From a virus, in the IMG/VR virus record IMGVR_UViG_3300037119_001982, positions 1-22,676 of that record: a stretch of DNA of 22,676 bases; one strand, given 5' to 3'. The notes beneath the pieces were generated by a model. The model was not told the DNA's origin. It saw nothing but the letters and a program-made list of their open reading frames with translations, and made no database searches. Positions 3,634 through 7,892 of this stretch are shown piece after piece. The translations under genes were made by a program, and so were the position numbers. Positions within the stretch are counted from its first letter, which is position 1. Each line of letters begins with the position of its first letter.

Positions 3634-4340
3634 GCACCGATCTAGTCGTGGTTGGAACGAACCCGGCGGCATTGATGGGGCAAGCGACAGATGTTGCGGG
3701 CGTGTGCGCCGAGATCGTCAAGCGCACCGCCATGAGTATCCAAGGGCGCAAGTACGTGCGCGTCGAAGGCTGGCAGTCGATCGCTGCGGCCTACGGGTGC
3801 GTGGCCTCGGCCGTCAATGTCGAGCGCATCACTGGCGGCGTGCGCGCCATCGGAGAACTGCACCGCATTGCCGACAGCGCCCTTATCGCAAGCGCCGTGG
3901 GCTTCGTCGGCGAAGACGAGCCGGTATGGTTCGGCGGCGAAGTGACGCAGTACGGGAAAACGAAGAAGTATGTGAAGCGCCCCGACTACGCGATTCAGGC
4001 AATGGCGCAGACTCGCGCCATCAGCCGCGTGTGCCGCAGCGCGTTCGCATTCGTCGTGGTGATGATCGACGGCAACCTGCAGACAACGCCGGCCGAGGAA
4101 ATGGCTGGCACGTTCACGCAAGAAGAAGAAGCGGCGCCGCCGCCGGCGCCCAAGGTCGCGGCCGAACAAGTCGAGGCGATCCACGTCGCGCTCGCGAAGA
4201 ACAACGTGGAACTCGCCGAGTTGCTGAAGAAGGCCGAGTTGACTGACCTGAAAGAACTCTCGGCAGAGGACGCACCCGGCGCGATCAAGTGGGTAGAGCA
4301 GCAGGGCAAGAAAGCGATGCAAAAGGCCGGGCGCGCGTGA
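3630..4340 (+). CDS. Conserved phage protein, possible recombination/ssDNA role
   Basis: This is a 236-residue protein starting at ATG 3630, ten bases after AGGAG. The core (about 42-160) contains VRVEGWQSIAAAYG, WFGGEVTQYG, an RPDYAIQAMAQTRAISRVCRSAFAF-type block (about 118-141), and TPAEEM at 153-158. I recognise this block as conserved in many phage proteins of uncertain function, often sited where other phages carry single-strand annealing proteins. The link to recombination is inference from position next to the integrase, not from a catalytic motif. Residues 164-180 are a Glu/Ala/Pro linker to a small helical C-terminal domain (AAEQVEAIHVALAKNN...), like the terminal domain seen in some RecT/ERF-type proteins. 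The frame upstream to 3366 is a shadow of the previous gene. Confidence 0.6.
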   Translation: MSTDLVVVGTNPAALMGQATDVAGVCAEIVKRTAMSIQGRKYVRVEGWQSIAAAYGCVASAVNVERITGGVRAIGELHRIADSALIASAVGFVGEDEPVWFGGEVTQYGKTKKYVKRPDYAIQAMAQTRAISRVCRSAFAFVVVMIDGNLQTTPAEEMAGTFTQEEEAAPPPAPKVAAEQVEAIHVALAKNNVELAELLKKAELTDLKELSAEDAPGAIKWVEQQGKKAMQKAGRA

Positions 4341-5275
4341 CGGACTTCAAGCCCTACACGGTCGGCTGGTGTATCGAAAAATATATCGCGGAAATGGCGA
4401 CGAGCGACGAAATGAAGACCCTAGGCGCATCTCAGGTCTACACGCTGCGCGGCGTCGCCGCCTCCATGCTCGGCCCGATGAACGCCGAGAACCTGACCCG
4501 GCAGGAAATCATCGCCTACGCGCGCTGGCGCCGCAATCAGACCATCAAGAGCACCGAGCGCAAGGTGAGCGCCGCAACGTGCGGCCAGTCGATCAGCTTC
4601 CTCGGCGTGGTGCTCAAGTACGCCGGATCCGCGTGGGAAGACTGCGAGAACATCACCGCGGCGTCGATCGTGGCGGCGAAGCCCTTCCTCACCAAGCACG
4701 GGCTTACCGGCAAATCGTCGCCGCGCGACCGGCGCCCGACCGACGATGAGATCGGGGCGCTTCTCGACTATTACGCTTTGCAGTCGCAGCACCGCAATAC
4801 CAAGGTGAACATGCCGCAGGTGATCGCCTTCGCCCTCGCCTCGACCAGGCGCCTCGGGGAAATCTGCCGCATCACGCACGGCGACGTGGACTACGAGCGC
4901 GGCACCTACTGGGTGCGTGACCTCAAGCACCCGACGAAGAAGAAGGGGAACGACAAGGAGTTCCCGCTATTCCCCGAGCTCGCCGAGATCATCAAGCGCC
5001 AACCGAGGCTCACCTTGAGCGCTGACGAGCGGGTCTTCCCCTACAACGCCAAGTCCTGCAGCCAGTCCTATGCCGCGGCGAAGAAGCGCCTAGGCATCAA
5101 GGGGCTGCGCTTCCATGATAACCGGCGCGAGGCCATCACGCGCTGGCTCGCGAAGCTGCAGCCGCATGAAGTGAAGCAGATCAGCGGGCACGAGACGACG
5201 GTTGTTCTTGAGCGCGTGTATCACCGGCCGAAGGCGACTGATCTGCTCGCCAAAGTAGCAGGGTTCAACAGGTAA
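4337..5275 (+). CDS. int: Tyrosine recombinase / phage integrase
   Basis: This 312-residue integrase starts at GTG 4337, overlapping the previous stop. An N-terminal SAM-like core-binding domain (about 5-115) is followed by the catalytic domain. Its residues are all present: R172 in TRRLGEI, a beta-hairpin lysine near K197 (DLKHPTKKKG), H260 and R263 in HDNRREA, H285 in SGHET, and the nucleophile Y295 in RVYHRP. The length is normal for phage integrases. It cuts and rejoins attP and attB to insert or excise the phage genome, so this phage is or derives from a temperate one. No excisionase, CI-type repressor or clear attP core is visible in the window. It sits within the rightward operon rather than at an end. 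Confidence 0.9.
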   Translation: MTDFKPYTVGWCIEKYIAEMATSDEMKTLGASQVYTLRGVAASMLGPMNAENLTRQEIIAYARWRRNQTIKSTERKVSAATCGQSISFLGVVLKYAGSAWEDCENITAASIVAAKPFLTKHGLTGKSSPRDRRPTDDEIGALLDYYALQSQHRNTKVNMPQVIAFALASTRRLGEICRITHGDVDYERGTYWVRDLKHPTKKKGNDKEFPLFPELAEIIKRQPRLTLSADERVFPYNAKSCSQSYAAAKKRLGIKGLRFHDNRREAITRWLAKLQPHEVKQISGHETTVVLERVYHRPKATDLLAKVAGFNR

Positions 5276-5481: not shown

Positions 5482-5940
5482 ATGTTCGTAGAGCACAAGG
5501 AAGCAGGCGAGCTACAGCCCACCAGGGAAAACAGCGAAGCAACGTACTGCCCGCATGGCTACGACGAATGTTGGCGGGGCTGCGTGTATCCGGGCCGCTG
5601 TGGGCGCTTCGAAGGGCTGGACGAGGCGAGCAAACTGCTGCTGAAGGCGGCGGATCTGATCGAGGATCACGGATTTGTTCAGAATCGAATCGGCCGCGGC
5701 GAGGGGGATGGTTTCTGCGTAGCTCATGCGATGGCGCGGGCATTTGGTGGCGATGACCTCTACGAGAGCCACGCTTACAAGCGTCTCCGCCGCAGTTTGG
5801 GTATGGGCCCCTACGAGAGCCACGCTTACAAGCGTCTGCACCGCAGTTTGGGTATGGGCCCGAGCATTTGGAACGACGAGCCCGGCCGCACCAAGGAAGA
5901 AGTCGTCGCCAAACTGCGCGCCGTGGCTCTCGGTGGTTAG
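5482..5940 (+). CDS. DUF6197-like protein with internal tandem duplication
   Basis: The 152-residue protein starts at ATG 5482, with AGGAG at 5471-5475. Residues 22-43 are Cys-rich (YCPHGYDECWRGCVYPGRC), possibly metal-binding. From residue 49 the sequence follows the DUF6197 pattern as I remember it: a helix ASKLLLKAADLIEDHG, then a GFCVAHAMARA segment, and near the end WNDEPGRTKEEVVAKLRAVA. DUF6197 is a family of unknown function found in phages and actinobacteria. Between these parts a 17-residue unit, YESHAYKRL(R/H)RSLGMGP, is present twice (94-110, 111-127), encoded by a 51-bp tandem duplication. Normal members should carry it once. It directly precedes the DpdA-like gene but a functional link is not shown. 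Confidence 0.7.
   Translation: MFVEHKEAGELQPTRENSEATYCPHGYDECWRGCVYPGRCGRFEGLDEASKLLLKAADLIEDHGFVQNRIGRGEGDGFCVAHAMARAFGGDDLYESHAYKRLRRSLGMGPYESHAYKRLHRSLGMGPSIWNDEPGRTKEEVVAKLRAVALGG
5760..5861 (+). repeat. 51-bp in-frame tandem duplication (two units)
   Basis: Unit 1 is 5760-5810 and unit 2 is 5811-5861. They match at 49 of 51 positions; the two differences (CCG versus GCA) change a single codon pair so that Arg becomes His. The length is a multiple of three, so the reading frame of the DUF6197-like gene is kept. The near identity suggests a recent duplication. Confidence 0.9.
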
Positions 5941-5961: not shown

Positions 5962-6561
5962 GTGATCGTGCTCCTAGACACCGGACAGGATTTAGCGACG
6001 TGCCAGCAGGAACTCGGCTGCGAGGTAGGTCAACTGCTGACACCGCTGACCAGATACACGCTGCGCGAGCCAAGCCGCCAGTGGGCAATCGACAACGGTG
6101 CGTTTTCGGCATTCGAGGAGAAGGCATTCCTGTCCCTGTTGCAGCGCGAGGAGCACCACAAAGCGAATTGCATCTTCGTCACCGTGCCAGATGTCGTCGG
6201 ATCAGCTCGTCGCACGCTTGAGGTCTTTGCCCACTGGAAGGGGCGGCTCGCATCGTGGCCTCTAGCCGTCGCCTGCCAGGACGGACAGGAGCACCTGCCG
6301 ATCCCGTGGGACGACATCGCGGCGGTGTTCATTGGCGGCTCAACGAACTGGAAATTGTCCGACCACGCGGCGCAGTGCATCAAGGCGGCTAAGGCACTCG
6401 GGAAGTGGGCGCACGTCGGGAGGGTCAACGACCCGGCCCGCTTCGAGCACTTCGAGAAACTCGGCGCGGACTCAATCGACGGCAGCGGGATCGCCCGCTA
6501 CACCCACATGCGCGATGCCATCTCCAAGCGAGACAACCAGGAGAAACTCTTTGCTAGTTAG
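5962..6561 (+). CDS. dpdA: DpdA-like deazaguanine DNA transglycosylase
   Basis: This 199-residue protein of the tRNA-guanine transglycosylase fold is of the short phage type. DpdA enzymes exchange guanine in DNA for a 7-deazaguanine base. Visible motifs in order are WAIDNGAF (41-48, equivalent to DSGGF of bacterial TGT, with D44 as the base-recognition or catalytic Asp), VPDVVG (75-80), VFIGGSTNWKLS (122-133), HVGRVN (151-156) and GADSIDGS (168-175, matching the region of the TGT nucleophile Asp). The Cys/His zinc site and tRNA-binding C-terminal part of tRNA enzymes are absent, as in phage DpdA. The start is GTG 5962 with no clear ribosome-binding site. The next genes, a QueF-like protein and a YhhQ-type transporter, strongly support a deazaguanine role. 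Subfamily not decided. Confidence 0.8.
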   Translation: MIVLLDTGQDLATCQQELGCEVGQLLTPLTRYTLREPSRQWAIDNGAFSAFEEKAFLSLLQREEHHKANCIFVTVPDVVGSARRTLEVFAHWKGRLASWPLAVACQDGQEHLPIPWDDIAAVFIGGSTNWKLSDHAAQCIKAAKALGKWAHVGRVNDPARFEHFEKLGADSIDGSGIARYTHMRDAISKRDNQEKLFAS

Positions 6562-6796
6562 GCACTACCTAACAATCACCGCTACATGCCCCGTGGACCG
6601 CAAGCCTGACAACTACGCGGCGGTGATTGAGTGCGGCTACATGGTCAAGGTAGAAGCAATCCTCGCGGCCGTGGAGAGCCTGCGCTCGCGCCGCATCTTT
6701 CAAGAGGAATTGACGCAGGAGCTCGCCCGCGTGCTAGGAGCGAAGGTCACTACATCTGGCTATCACTCAGGAGTAAAAACAGTATGCGAATGCTGA
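6551..6796 (+). CDS. Miniature QueF-like T-fold protein
   Basis: This 81-residue protein sits between the transglycosylase and the transporter. I chose TTG 6551 as start because AGGAG (6539-6543) lies seven bases before it; GTG 6593 would remove the first motif. The layout is one tunnelling-fold unit: strands HYLTITATCPVD and NYAAVIECGYMVKVE, a helical part ESLRSRRIFQEELTQELA, then strands VTTSGYHSG and VKTVCEC. The stretch CPVDRKPD (C13 to D20) matches the QueF active-site pattern CPxTGQPD, with Cys and Asp at the same spacing; FQEE corresponds to FHED. QueF reduces preQ0 to preQ1; QueF-like archaeal enzymes act on the same nitrile. With half the usual length it may lack reductase activity. 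GTP cyclohydrolase-like origin is the alternative. Confidence 0.6.
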   Translation: MLVRHYLTITATCPVDRKPDNYAAVIECGYMVKVEAILAAVESLRSRRIFQEELTQELARVLGAKVTTSGYHSGVKTVCEC

Positions 6797-7263
6797 TCGC
6801 CTCTTACATCGCTGCAATGGTCGTCGCCAACATGCTCGTGTGGTGGCTCGGGCCGTGGTCCTCGCCCTTCATCGCCTTCGTGCTGATTGGGCTGGACCTG
6901 ACGCTGCGGGACGTGATGCACGACAGGCTGACCCGCTGGCAGATGCTCGCCGTAGTGCTGGCCGGCGGCGCGATCACTTGGGCGGTCAACCCTGCTGCGG
7001 CGCATATCGCCATCGCCTCTGCAACCGCCTTCACCGTGTCCGCTGCGGCCGACTGGCTCGCTTACACCTACCTGCGCTCACGGCCCTGGCTGGTGCGCGC
7101 CAACGGCTCCAACGTGGTAGGTGCTGCCGTGGACAGTTTGATCTTCCCGACGATGGCCTTCGGGGGCTTCCTGCCGCACATCGTCGCCATGCAATTCGCC
7201 GCGAAGGTAGGGGGCGGCGCGTTGTGGTCATGGTGCCTTCGCAAGCAAACCTTCGCCCAATGA
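6784..7263 (+). CDS. yhhQ: VUT/YhhQ-family queuosine-precursor transporter
   Basis: This 159-residue integral membrane protein of the vitamin uptake transporter (DUF165/YhhQ) family imports preQ0/preQ1-type bases in E. coli. Hydrophobic segments are at about 3-22, 27-40, 55-72, 75-100 and 115-155. Family-like signatures are LRDVMHDR (42-49), a central ASATAFTVSAAADWLAY, and RANGSNVVGAAVDSLIFPTMAFGG, with the conserved S-N...D-S-x-x-F pattern. E. coli YhhQ has about 220 residues, so this is a compact phage version, perhaps lacking one helix. ATG 6784 overlaps the end of the QueF-like gene by 13 bases, with AGGAG at 6769-6773. The gene would raise precursor supply for the DpdA-like enzyme. Substrate is inferred from family and context. 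Confidence 0.85.
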   Translation: MRMLIASYIAAMVVANMLVWWLGPWSSPFIAFVLIGLDLTLRDVMHDRLTRWQMLAVVLAGGAITWAVNPAAAHIAIASATAFTVSAAADWLAYTYLRSRPWLVRANGSNVVGAAVDSLIFPTMAFGGFLPHIVAMQFAAKVGGGALWSWCLRKQTFAQ

Positions 7264-7385: not shown

Positions 7386-7892
7386 ATGCACATGAGCGAA
7401 CAAGAGTCCTTCCTTCCGGTCGTCGAGAACATCAAGGGCACCAAGTTTGCCGATGGTGCTCCTGACGGGAAGCACTATTGGCTGACGCCTCCGGAACTGT
7501 GGCAGCAGTTGAACATGGAGTTCAGCTTCGACTTCGACCCGTGCCCCTTCCCGCTCCCCGAGGGCTTCGATGGCCTGACGTGCGAGTGGGGCAAGAGCAG
7601 CTATGTGAACCCGCCCTTCGGCTCCGTGCTGCACAAGGGCCGCAAGAAAGGGCCGACAGCGTGGGCTAGGAAGGCGCTGGAGGAATCCCGCAAAGGGAAG
7701 CGCGTGGTCCTTGTGTACCCGATTGACAAGTGGATCCTGATGCTCCTCGCCGCCGGGGCGAAGGTCAGGAACTTGGGCGACGTGAAGTGGCTGGCAACCG
7801 AGGACCGCAGCCAAGGGGTCGGAACTGGTCGGCACGTCGCGGCTTTCATACTTGAATGCACCCCTGCCACACACGTACCGGAGAAATCATGA
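7386..7892 (+). CDS. dam: Phage Dam-type DNA N6-adenine methyltransferase
   Basis: This 168-residue protein follows the pattern of the phage DNA N-6-adenine-methyltransferase family (Pfam Dam). WLTPPELW lies at 32-39, FDFDPCP at 48-54, LTCEWGKSSYVNPPFGS at 64-80 with the catalytic NPPF (75-78), a variant of DPPY, and a VVLVYPIDKW strand near 107-116. The enzyme transfers a methyl group from S-adenosylmethionine to adenine N6, typically to evade host restriction. It begins at ATG 7386 (or ATG 7392), without a clear ribosome-binding site. The stop overlaps the next start as ATGA. Placed after the deazaguanine genes it makes this part of the operon a DNA-modification island. Confidence 0.85.
   Translation: MHMSEQESFLPVVENIKGTKFADGAPDGKHYWLTPPELWQQLNMEFSFDFDPCPFPLPEGFDGLTCEWGKSSYVNPPFGSVLHKGRKKGPTAWARKALEESRKGKRVVLVYPIDKWILMLLAAGAKVRNLGDVKWLATEDRSQGVGTGRHVAAFILECTPATHVPEKS

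Follow-up and report, generated by a model that had tools for sequence, protein, structure and literature searches.

A minimal QueF-Like-type T-fold protein clustered with a DpdA-type transglycosylase and a YhhQ-family transporter in a candidate phage cassette for 7-deazaguanine DNA modification

Modified 7-deazaguanine bases have been identified in the DNA of phages that encode the transglycosylase DpdA: the DNA of phage MED16 contains dADG, as determined by LC-MS (PMC8306585), and that of Streptococcus phage Dp-1 carries dPreQ1 (PMC6884629). Phages possessing DpdA alone, phages bearing QueF-Like (QueF-L) proteins, and the presence of YhhQ in some phages have all been reported earlier (PMC6884629), as has a phage QueF-L of 98 amino acids (PMC7472734). 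Many phages encode dpdA but neither precursor nor tailoring genes, and for these the modification status has been termed hard to predict (PMC6884629). Catalysis by both QueF and QueF-L involves a cysteine that forms a thioimide and an aspartate that serves as general acid/base, with ammonia being used by QueF-L and NADPH by QueF (PMC5485725).

Here, we describe a computational analysis of a 22,676-base (~22.7-kb) viral-contig fragment, a partial genome referred to below as the window, in which a TGT-type gene, a gene encoding a very small T-fold protein designated P0002, and a transporter gene are adjacent (Table 1). We present evidence that this cassette is very probably a DpdA-based DNA modification module. 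Furthermore, we find that the middle gene belongs to a family of minimal T-fold proteins (the mini family) that resembles the archaeal QueF-L enzyme and recurs beside TGT-type genes.

Table 1. Features of the window, followed by a small protein encoded beside DpdA in other phages
Feature	Coordinates	Strand	Remarks
DpdA/TGT-type DNA transglycosylase (predicted)	5962..6561	+	199 aa, GTG start
Minimal QueF-L-type T-fold protein (P0002)	6551..6796	+	~80 aa, TTG start, overlaps both neighbours
YhhQ/VUT-family membrane protein, putative 7-deazaguanine precursor transporter	6784..7263	+	159 aa
DUF6197 protein, directly upstream, same transcriptional direction	5482..5940	+	PF19698 E 2e-14
Dam-like adenine methyltransferase, downstream	7386..7892	+	PF05869 E 5e-4, 20.3 bits, cut-off 28.1
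GGLE.RFI-type small protein	L056 3678-3938 (Pam5), L060 2512-2757 (RHph_X2_30), L059 3723-3977 (DMCA)		

The first-pass annotation had described three adjacent genes that overlap in translation, and all three frames and their overlaps are present. The best start for P0002 is the TTG at 6551, a few bases past AGGAGA, and the transporter starts at ATG 6784, likewise with AGGAG upstream. Pairwise comparison with the homologous cassette in locus L008 yielded dS/dN values of 1.5/0.20 for the TGT gene, 1.0/0.17 for the middle gene and 1.1/0.13 for the transporter gene (dN/dS of ~0.11-0.16 for each of the three), indicating that all three are protein-coding and under purifying selection and that none is a chance frame. 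A megablast search of sequenced phages found no relative. Upstream of the cassette, positions 4289-5275 encode a phage integrase (PF00589, 44 bits), and the phage may therefore be temperate. The Dam-like gene is a possible second DNA-modification gene outside the conserved trio; a DNA methyltransferase gene also lies near dpdA in MED16 and RHph_N3_2.

The product of gene 1 matches phrog_15826 (E 1e-36) and, by tblastn, shares 62% identity with a protein from a Synechococcus phage and 38-42% with proteins annotated as DpdA-like TGT, with E values down to 4e-27. An iterated gene 1 profile extends to other phage TGT/DpdA subfamilies, including the phrog_887-type and that of the TGT annotated in SHIN8 (Seuratvirus; E 4e-6). 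Further DpdA subfamilies, as well as the enzymes DpdL, DpdM and DpdN, have reportedly been named in later work; gene 1 is classed here simply as DpdA-type with the conserved His. In an alignment of 29 diverse relatives, D44 (within D[N/S]GAF), D77, G125, H151, S171 and D173 are unchanged; the D(N/S)GAF and SxD aspartate motifs recur in the DpdA of SHIN8 and of Dp-1, and H151 is probably the counterpart of His196 in 9g-type DpdA. The motifs DNGAF, IGGSTNWK and GADSIDG, cited initially for a DpdA-like identity, are present, and that identity is upheld by clear homology to annotated DpdA-like proteins. Single-protein searches of Pfam and NCBIfam returned nothing useful for genes 1 and 2, DpdA sets compared by profile with E. 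coli TGT were uninformative, and comparison of the DpdA-set profiles A4 and A5 gave a weak score with both aspartate motifs aligned. The initial proposal had also hinged on a TGT fold for gene 1, and structure prediction did not refute it. In the AlphaFold (AF2) model (pLDDT 88) the best structural match by VIA is a TGT (4q8p; Z 13.3, rmsd 3.0 over 178), in a tie with other TIM barrels: pyruvate kinase scores Z 13.0, within 0.3 Z, so that the fold of gene 1 alone cannot discriminate, and other, generic TIM barrels ranked ahead in Foldseek. The protein is predicted to act by base exchange in DNA.

Gene 3 passes the Pfam family PF02592 (Vut_1; 45.7 bits, cut-off 27.2) and falls below the equivalog cut-off of TIGR00697, the queuosine precursor transporter (32.2 versus 50.95 bits). 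A profile of its phage VUT relatives matches E. coli YhhQ, which, together with the Pfam score, bears out its earlier assignment as a YhhQ/VUT transporter; it putatively carries a preQ0-type precursor. In agreement with the first-pass annotation, a profile search for QueC, QueD and FolE found none of these three preQ0 synthesis genes in the window. The same search yielded none above cut-off in any of 29 contigs (0/29), where the sole FolE signal came from the mini gene of one contig, scoring below cut-off; the contigs are fragments and may be incomplete, and such missing genes therefore prove little. From the frequent clustering of VUT and the synthesis genes not found, we infer that the module is fed by salvaged precursor.

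P0002 matches no Pfam or NCBIfam family, including the Pfam QueF family PF14489, to which three of 27 mini-family relatives gathered from viral contigs match weakly (best E 0.006). A profile built from these 27 members and compared with PDB sequences gave a sole significant match, the archaeal QueF-Like protein 5jyx (E 5e-5). FolE scores slightly higher than QueF in profile comparison, and hhalign of the family with single QueF sequences was weak. The AF2 model of P0002 (pLDDT 94.9) is a complete bbaabb T-fold that superposes over all 80 residues on QueF-L 5k0p with an rmsd of 1.2 A, and the structural ranking by VIA Z score is QueF-L (13.4), FolE (11.3) and QueF (9.8). The small QueF-like protein of the first-pass annotation accordingly resembles archaeal QueF-L rather than the reductase QueF. 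P0002 also matches phrog_37496 (E 1e-5). In a scan of genome contigs the mini family had no cellular relative, and tblastn searches of 50,697 phages with P0002 and four relatives as queries came up empty; the mini protein of Mae-JY30, a better query, led to those of Epa33 and RHph_X2_30.

Cys12-Pro13, Tyr21, Glu34, Glu51 and His71 are invariant among 19 very diverse mini members, including these three isolated phages. Cys12 occupies the position of the QueF thioimide cysteine; Cys12 and Asp19 align with QueF-L Cys21 and the aspartate seven residues on, and a Glu aligns with QueF-L as well. A T-fold with the catalytic Cys-Pro and an Asp at Cys+7 characterizes P0002 and most relatives; this Asp is missing in some of the distant members, those of Epa33, Mae-JY30 and RHph_X2_30 among them. 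The His-Glu pair of the QueF/QueF-L pocket is replaced by Gln-Glu in P0002 and all 27 profile members, His-Glu being found within the family only in the Epa33 and Mae-JY30 relatives, and the invariant H71 is a different histidine from that of the pair. The NADPH-binding motif of QueF (ESKSLKLY-type), present in Dp-1 QueF, is absent from P0002, which reads VEAILAAV.

The mini-family search was made independently of DpdA; some loci were first fetched via the TGT gene and 33 via the mini gene alone. At 41 of 41 mini loci, which form 23 clusters at 90% identity and 14 at 70%, a TGT-type gene adjoins the mini gene or lies within ~0.6 kb. Such TGT genes are rare (24/50,697 and 104/50,697 phage records with two queries), making chance adjacency negligible. 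The order is TGT-mini-VUT in the window, L008 and L010, and VUT-mini-TGT in L024, L026, L028, L029 and L035; TGT-mini and mini-TGT also occur. Across the loci, VUT is often in the cluster. The TGT partners are spread over two or more PHROG families of DpdA, and the partner at L009 is 43% identical to the DpdA of MED16, the phage with dADG in its DNA. By these gene contexts, the trio is a recurrent module in many unrelated phages and not a one-off.

The mini genes of the isolated phages Epa33, Mae-JY30 and RHph_X2_30 are each recorded as 'hypothetical protein'; Epa33 is a Pseudomonas phage and RHph_X2_30 a Sinorhizobium phage. Their orders are mini, TGT and then a C5 cytosine methylase in Epa33; TGT and then mini in Mae-JY30; and VUT, a small gene, mini and TGT in RHph_X2_30. 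Arthrobacter phage Aoka (L017 5083-6567) has VUT, a 109-aa protein and DpdA, and the middle protein, gp39, clears the QueF cut-off of Pfam, which independently supports the middle gene of the trio being QueF-related. Within the Aoka record only DpdA is recognised, VUT being a 'membrane protein' and the Pfam-QueF gene a 'hypothetical protein'.

Several further arrangements surround DpdA-type genes. In phage Pam5, where the order is likewise DpdA, small gene, VUT, the small gene bears no relation to the T-fold family. A small conserved protein with the pattern GGLE.RFI.ER.DG.PI...RY..VLDFSGADP is encoded beside DpdA in Pam5, RHph_X2_30 and DMCA, which are unrelated phages. Caulobacter phage DMCA (L059 2705-3001) and Synechococcus phage Yong-M4-211 (L014 4690-5004) carry a gene of 98-104 aa directly before a DpdA-type gene, that of DMCA barely clearing the Pfam PTPS/QueD cut-off; these genes possibly encode a second kind of minimal T-fold partner for DpdA. 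Escherichia phage SHIN8 has, besides an annotated full-length TGT and folE, queD, queE and queC, a second, window-type TGT gene between its clamp and DNA polymerase genes (L016 7863-8521), which is split into two overlapping frames and has a matching two-piece hit in phiG7. Two different TGT-type genes lie ~2.4 kb apart in Arthrobacter phage Sonali (L063 2938-3555 and 5925-6471), and PAPS-reductase-like genes adjoin or lie near a DpdA-type gene in Erythrobacter phage R6L and Rhodococcus phage ReqiPine5 (L018 7397-8440, L019 6655-7572).

The model we favor, at a probability of roughly 60% when all steps and a dG+-type product are counted in, reads the cassette as a phage operon that modifies DNA with a 7-deazaguanine obtained by salvage. 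In it, the YhhQ/VUT protein would boost uptake of a 7-deazaguanine precursor, for example preQ0, and the short DpdA would swap guanines in phage DNA for the imported precursor. The invariant cysteine of the 80-aa T-fold protein would then attack the nitrile of the inserted preQ0, forming a thioimide as QueF and QueF-L do; ammonia would resolve this thioimide to a formamidine, yielding dG+ (2'-deoxyarchaeosine). Such a base may protect the DNA from restriction and benefit the phage. By analogy, dG+ (archaeosine) is the most likely product: P0002 is like archaeal QueF-L and not the reductase QueF, and it lacks the NADPH lysine motif found in the QueF of Dp-1, whose DNA has dPreQ1, so that a formamidine is predicted over an aminomethyl group.

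The same module might instead make another product, with the T-fold protein hydrolysing the nitrile to an amide (dADG) or reducing it to dPreQ1 on the free base before DpdA acts. We consider this unlikely, while giving it some weight: dADG occurs in the DpdA-only phages 7-11 and MED16 (PMC6884629, PMC8306585), and phage proteins initially called QueF-L proved to yield dPreQ1 (PMC6884629). The active site of P0002 also differs from that of QueF-L in its Gln-Glu pair and in its extra invariant His. Against this, the missing NADPH-motif lysines speak against a reductase, and structure and profile both favor QueF-L; moreover, MED16 has dADG although dpdA was the sole pathway gene detected in it (PMC8306585), and a T-fold partner is thus not needed for dADG.

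Two further readings appear improbable. The fold of the 80-aa protein is second-best matched by FolE, and its Gln-Glu pair and late His are FolE-like by eye, as would be expected of a degenerate FolE-like T-fold with a structural or regulatory role in place of a QueF-L-type enzyme; however, of the FolE zinc ligands Cys110, His113 and Cys181, only the Cys110 position is kept in P0002 (by eye), the Cys-Pro motif is QueF-type, and the mini profile scores 26 bits to QueF-L versus 14 to FolE. That Cys and Glu stay invariant across 19-27 divergent members argues for catalysis. YhhQ usually serves queuosine, and relatives are named 'queuine tRNA-ribosyltransferase' in PHROGs and GenBank, which would fit genes that act on host tRNA in queuosine supply, or host-helping morons, rather than phage DNA modification. 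The gene 1 product, however, has roughly half as many residues as E. coli TGT (375 aa), phage DpdA has been tied to DNA modification independently of host TGT (Hutinet et al., PMC6884629), and the queuosine-specific QueA, QueG and QueH were not found in phages (PMC6884629).

What is new relative to the literature consulted is a tiny unnamed QueF-L-type T-fold family consistently paired with DpdA without precursor synthesis. More tentatively, this ~80-aa family, whose members are the smallest of QueF-L type in this analysis, may be a dedicated DNA-acting nitrile-tailoring enzyme of phages that works only with DpdA and salvaged preQ0, which would make it the first QueF-L-type archaeosine synthase on DNA. 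A compact module for salvage, insertion and tailoring provides a concrete prediction of how dpdA-only phages could obtain and finish a modified base, names cultured phages in which that prediction is testable, and puts a testable function on a PHROG family lacking one. The catalytic T-fold that it suggests is very small and might be a convenient enzyme for labelling DNA.

Several described systems share parts of this module. Family phrog_37496, which contains or closely matches the mini proteins of Epa33 gp12 (E 2e-49), Mae-JY30 and RHph_X2_30, is listed in PHROGs without function or structure. Pectobacterium phage PEAT2 and Acinetobacter phage AB3P2 have dpdA-yhhQ pairs with no listed preQ0 synthesis genes nearby and differ from the window in that no mini T-fold match was obtained. 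The VUT-QueF-DpdA trio of Aoka likewise has no such genes listed nearby, its 109-aa middle protein being nearer to canonical QueF. DpdA, QueF and the queuosine-type transporter QueT cluster in Dp-1 as in the window trio; in contrast, Dp-1 encodes the full preQ0 pathway and a canonical QueF with the NADPH motif, and has dPreQ1 DNA. Sphingomonas phage vB_StuS_MMDA13 gp33 (98 aa, 'archeosine synthase QueF-like', PMC7472734) is a small phage protein of QueF-L type with CPVN..PD in a dpdA cluster, but it matches the mini family marginally, and its full folE-queD-queC-queE cluster is absent from the window-type module. The closest likeness is to the Pyrobaculum calidifontis QueF-Like archaeosine synthase (5jyx/5k0p; PMC5485725), with which P0002 has in common the T-fold, the catalytic Cys, the Asp seven residues on and a Glu, all 80 of its residues superposing on a part that is also without the NADPH-type motif. 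The P. calidifontis enzyme differs in being archaeal, in its length of ~109 aa, in its preQ0-tRNA substrate, and in the His of its His-Glu pair, which is Gln in P0002. Unlike archaeal QueF-L, the phage mini protein is encoded beside DpdA, and a DNA substrate would therefore be expected.
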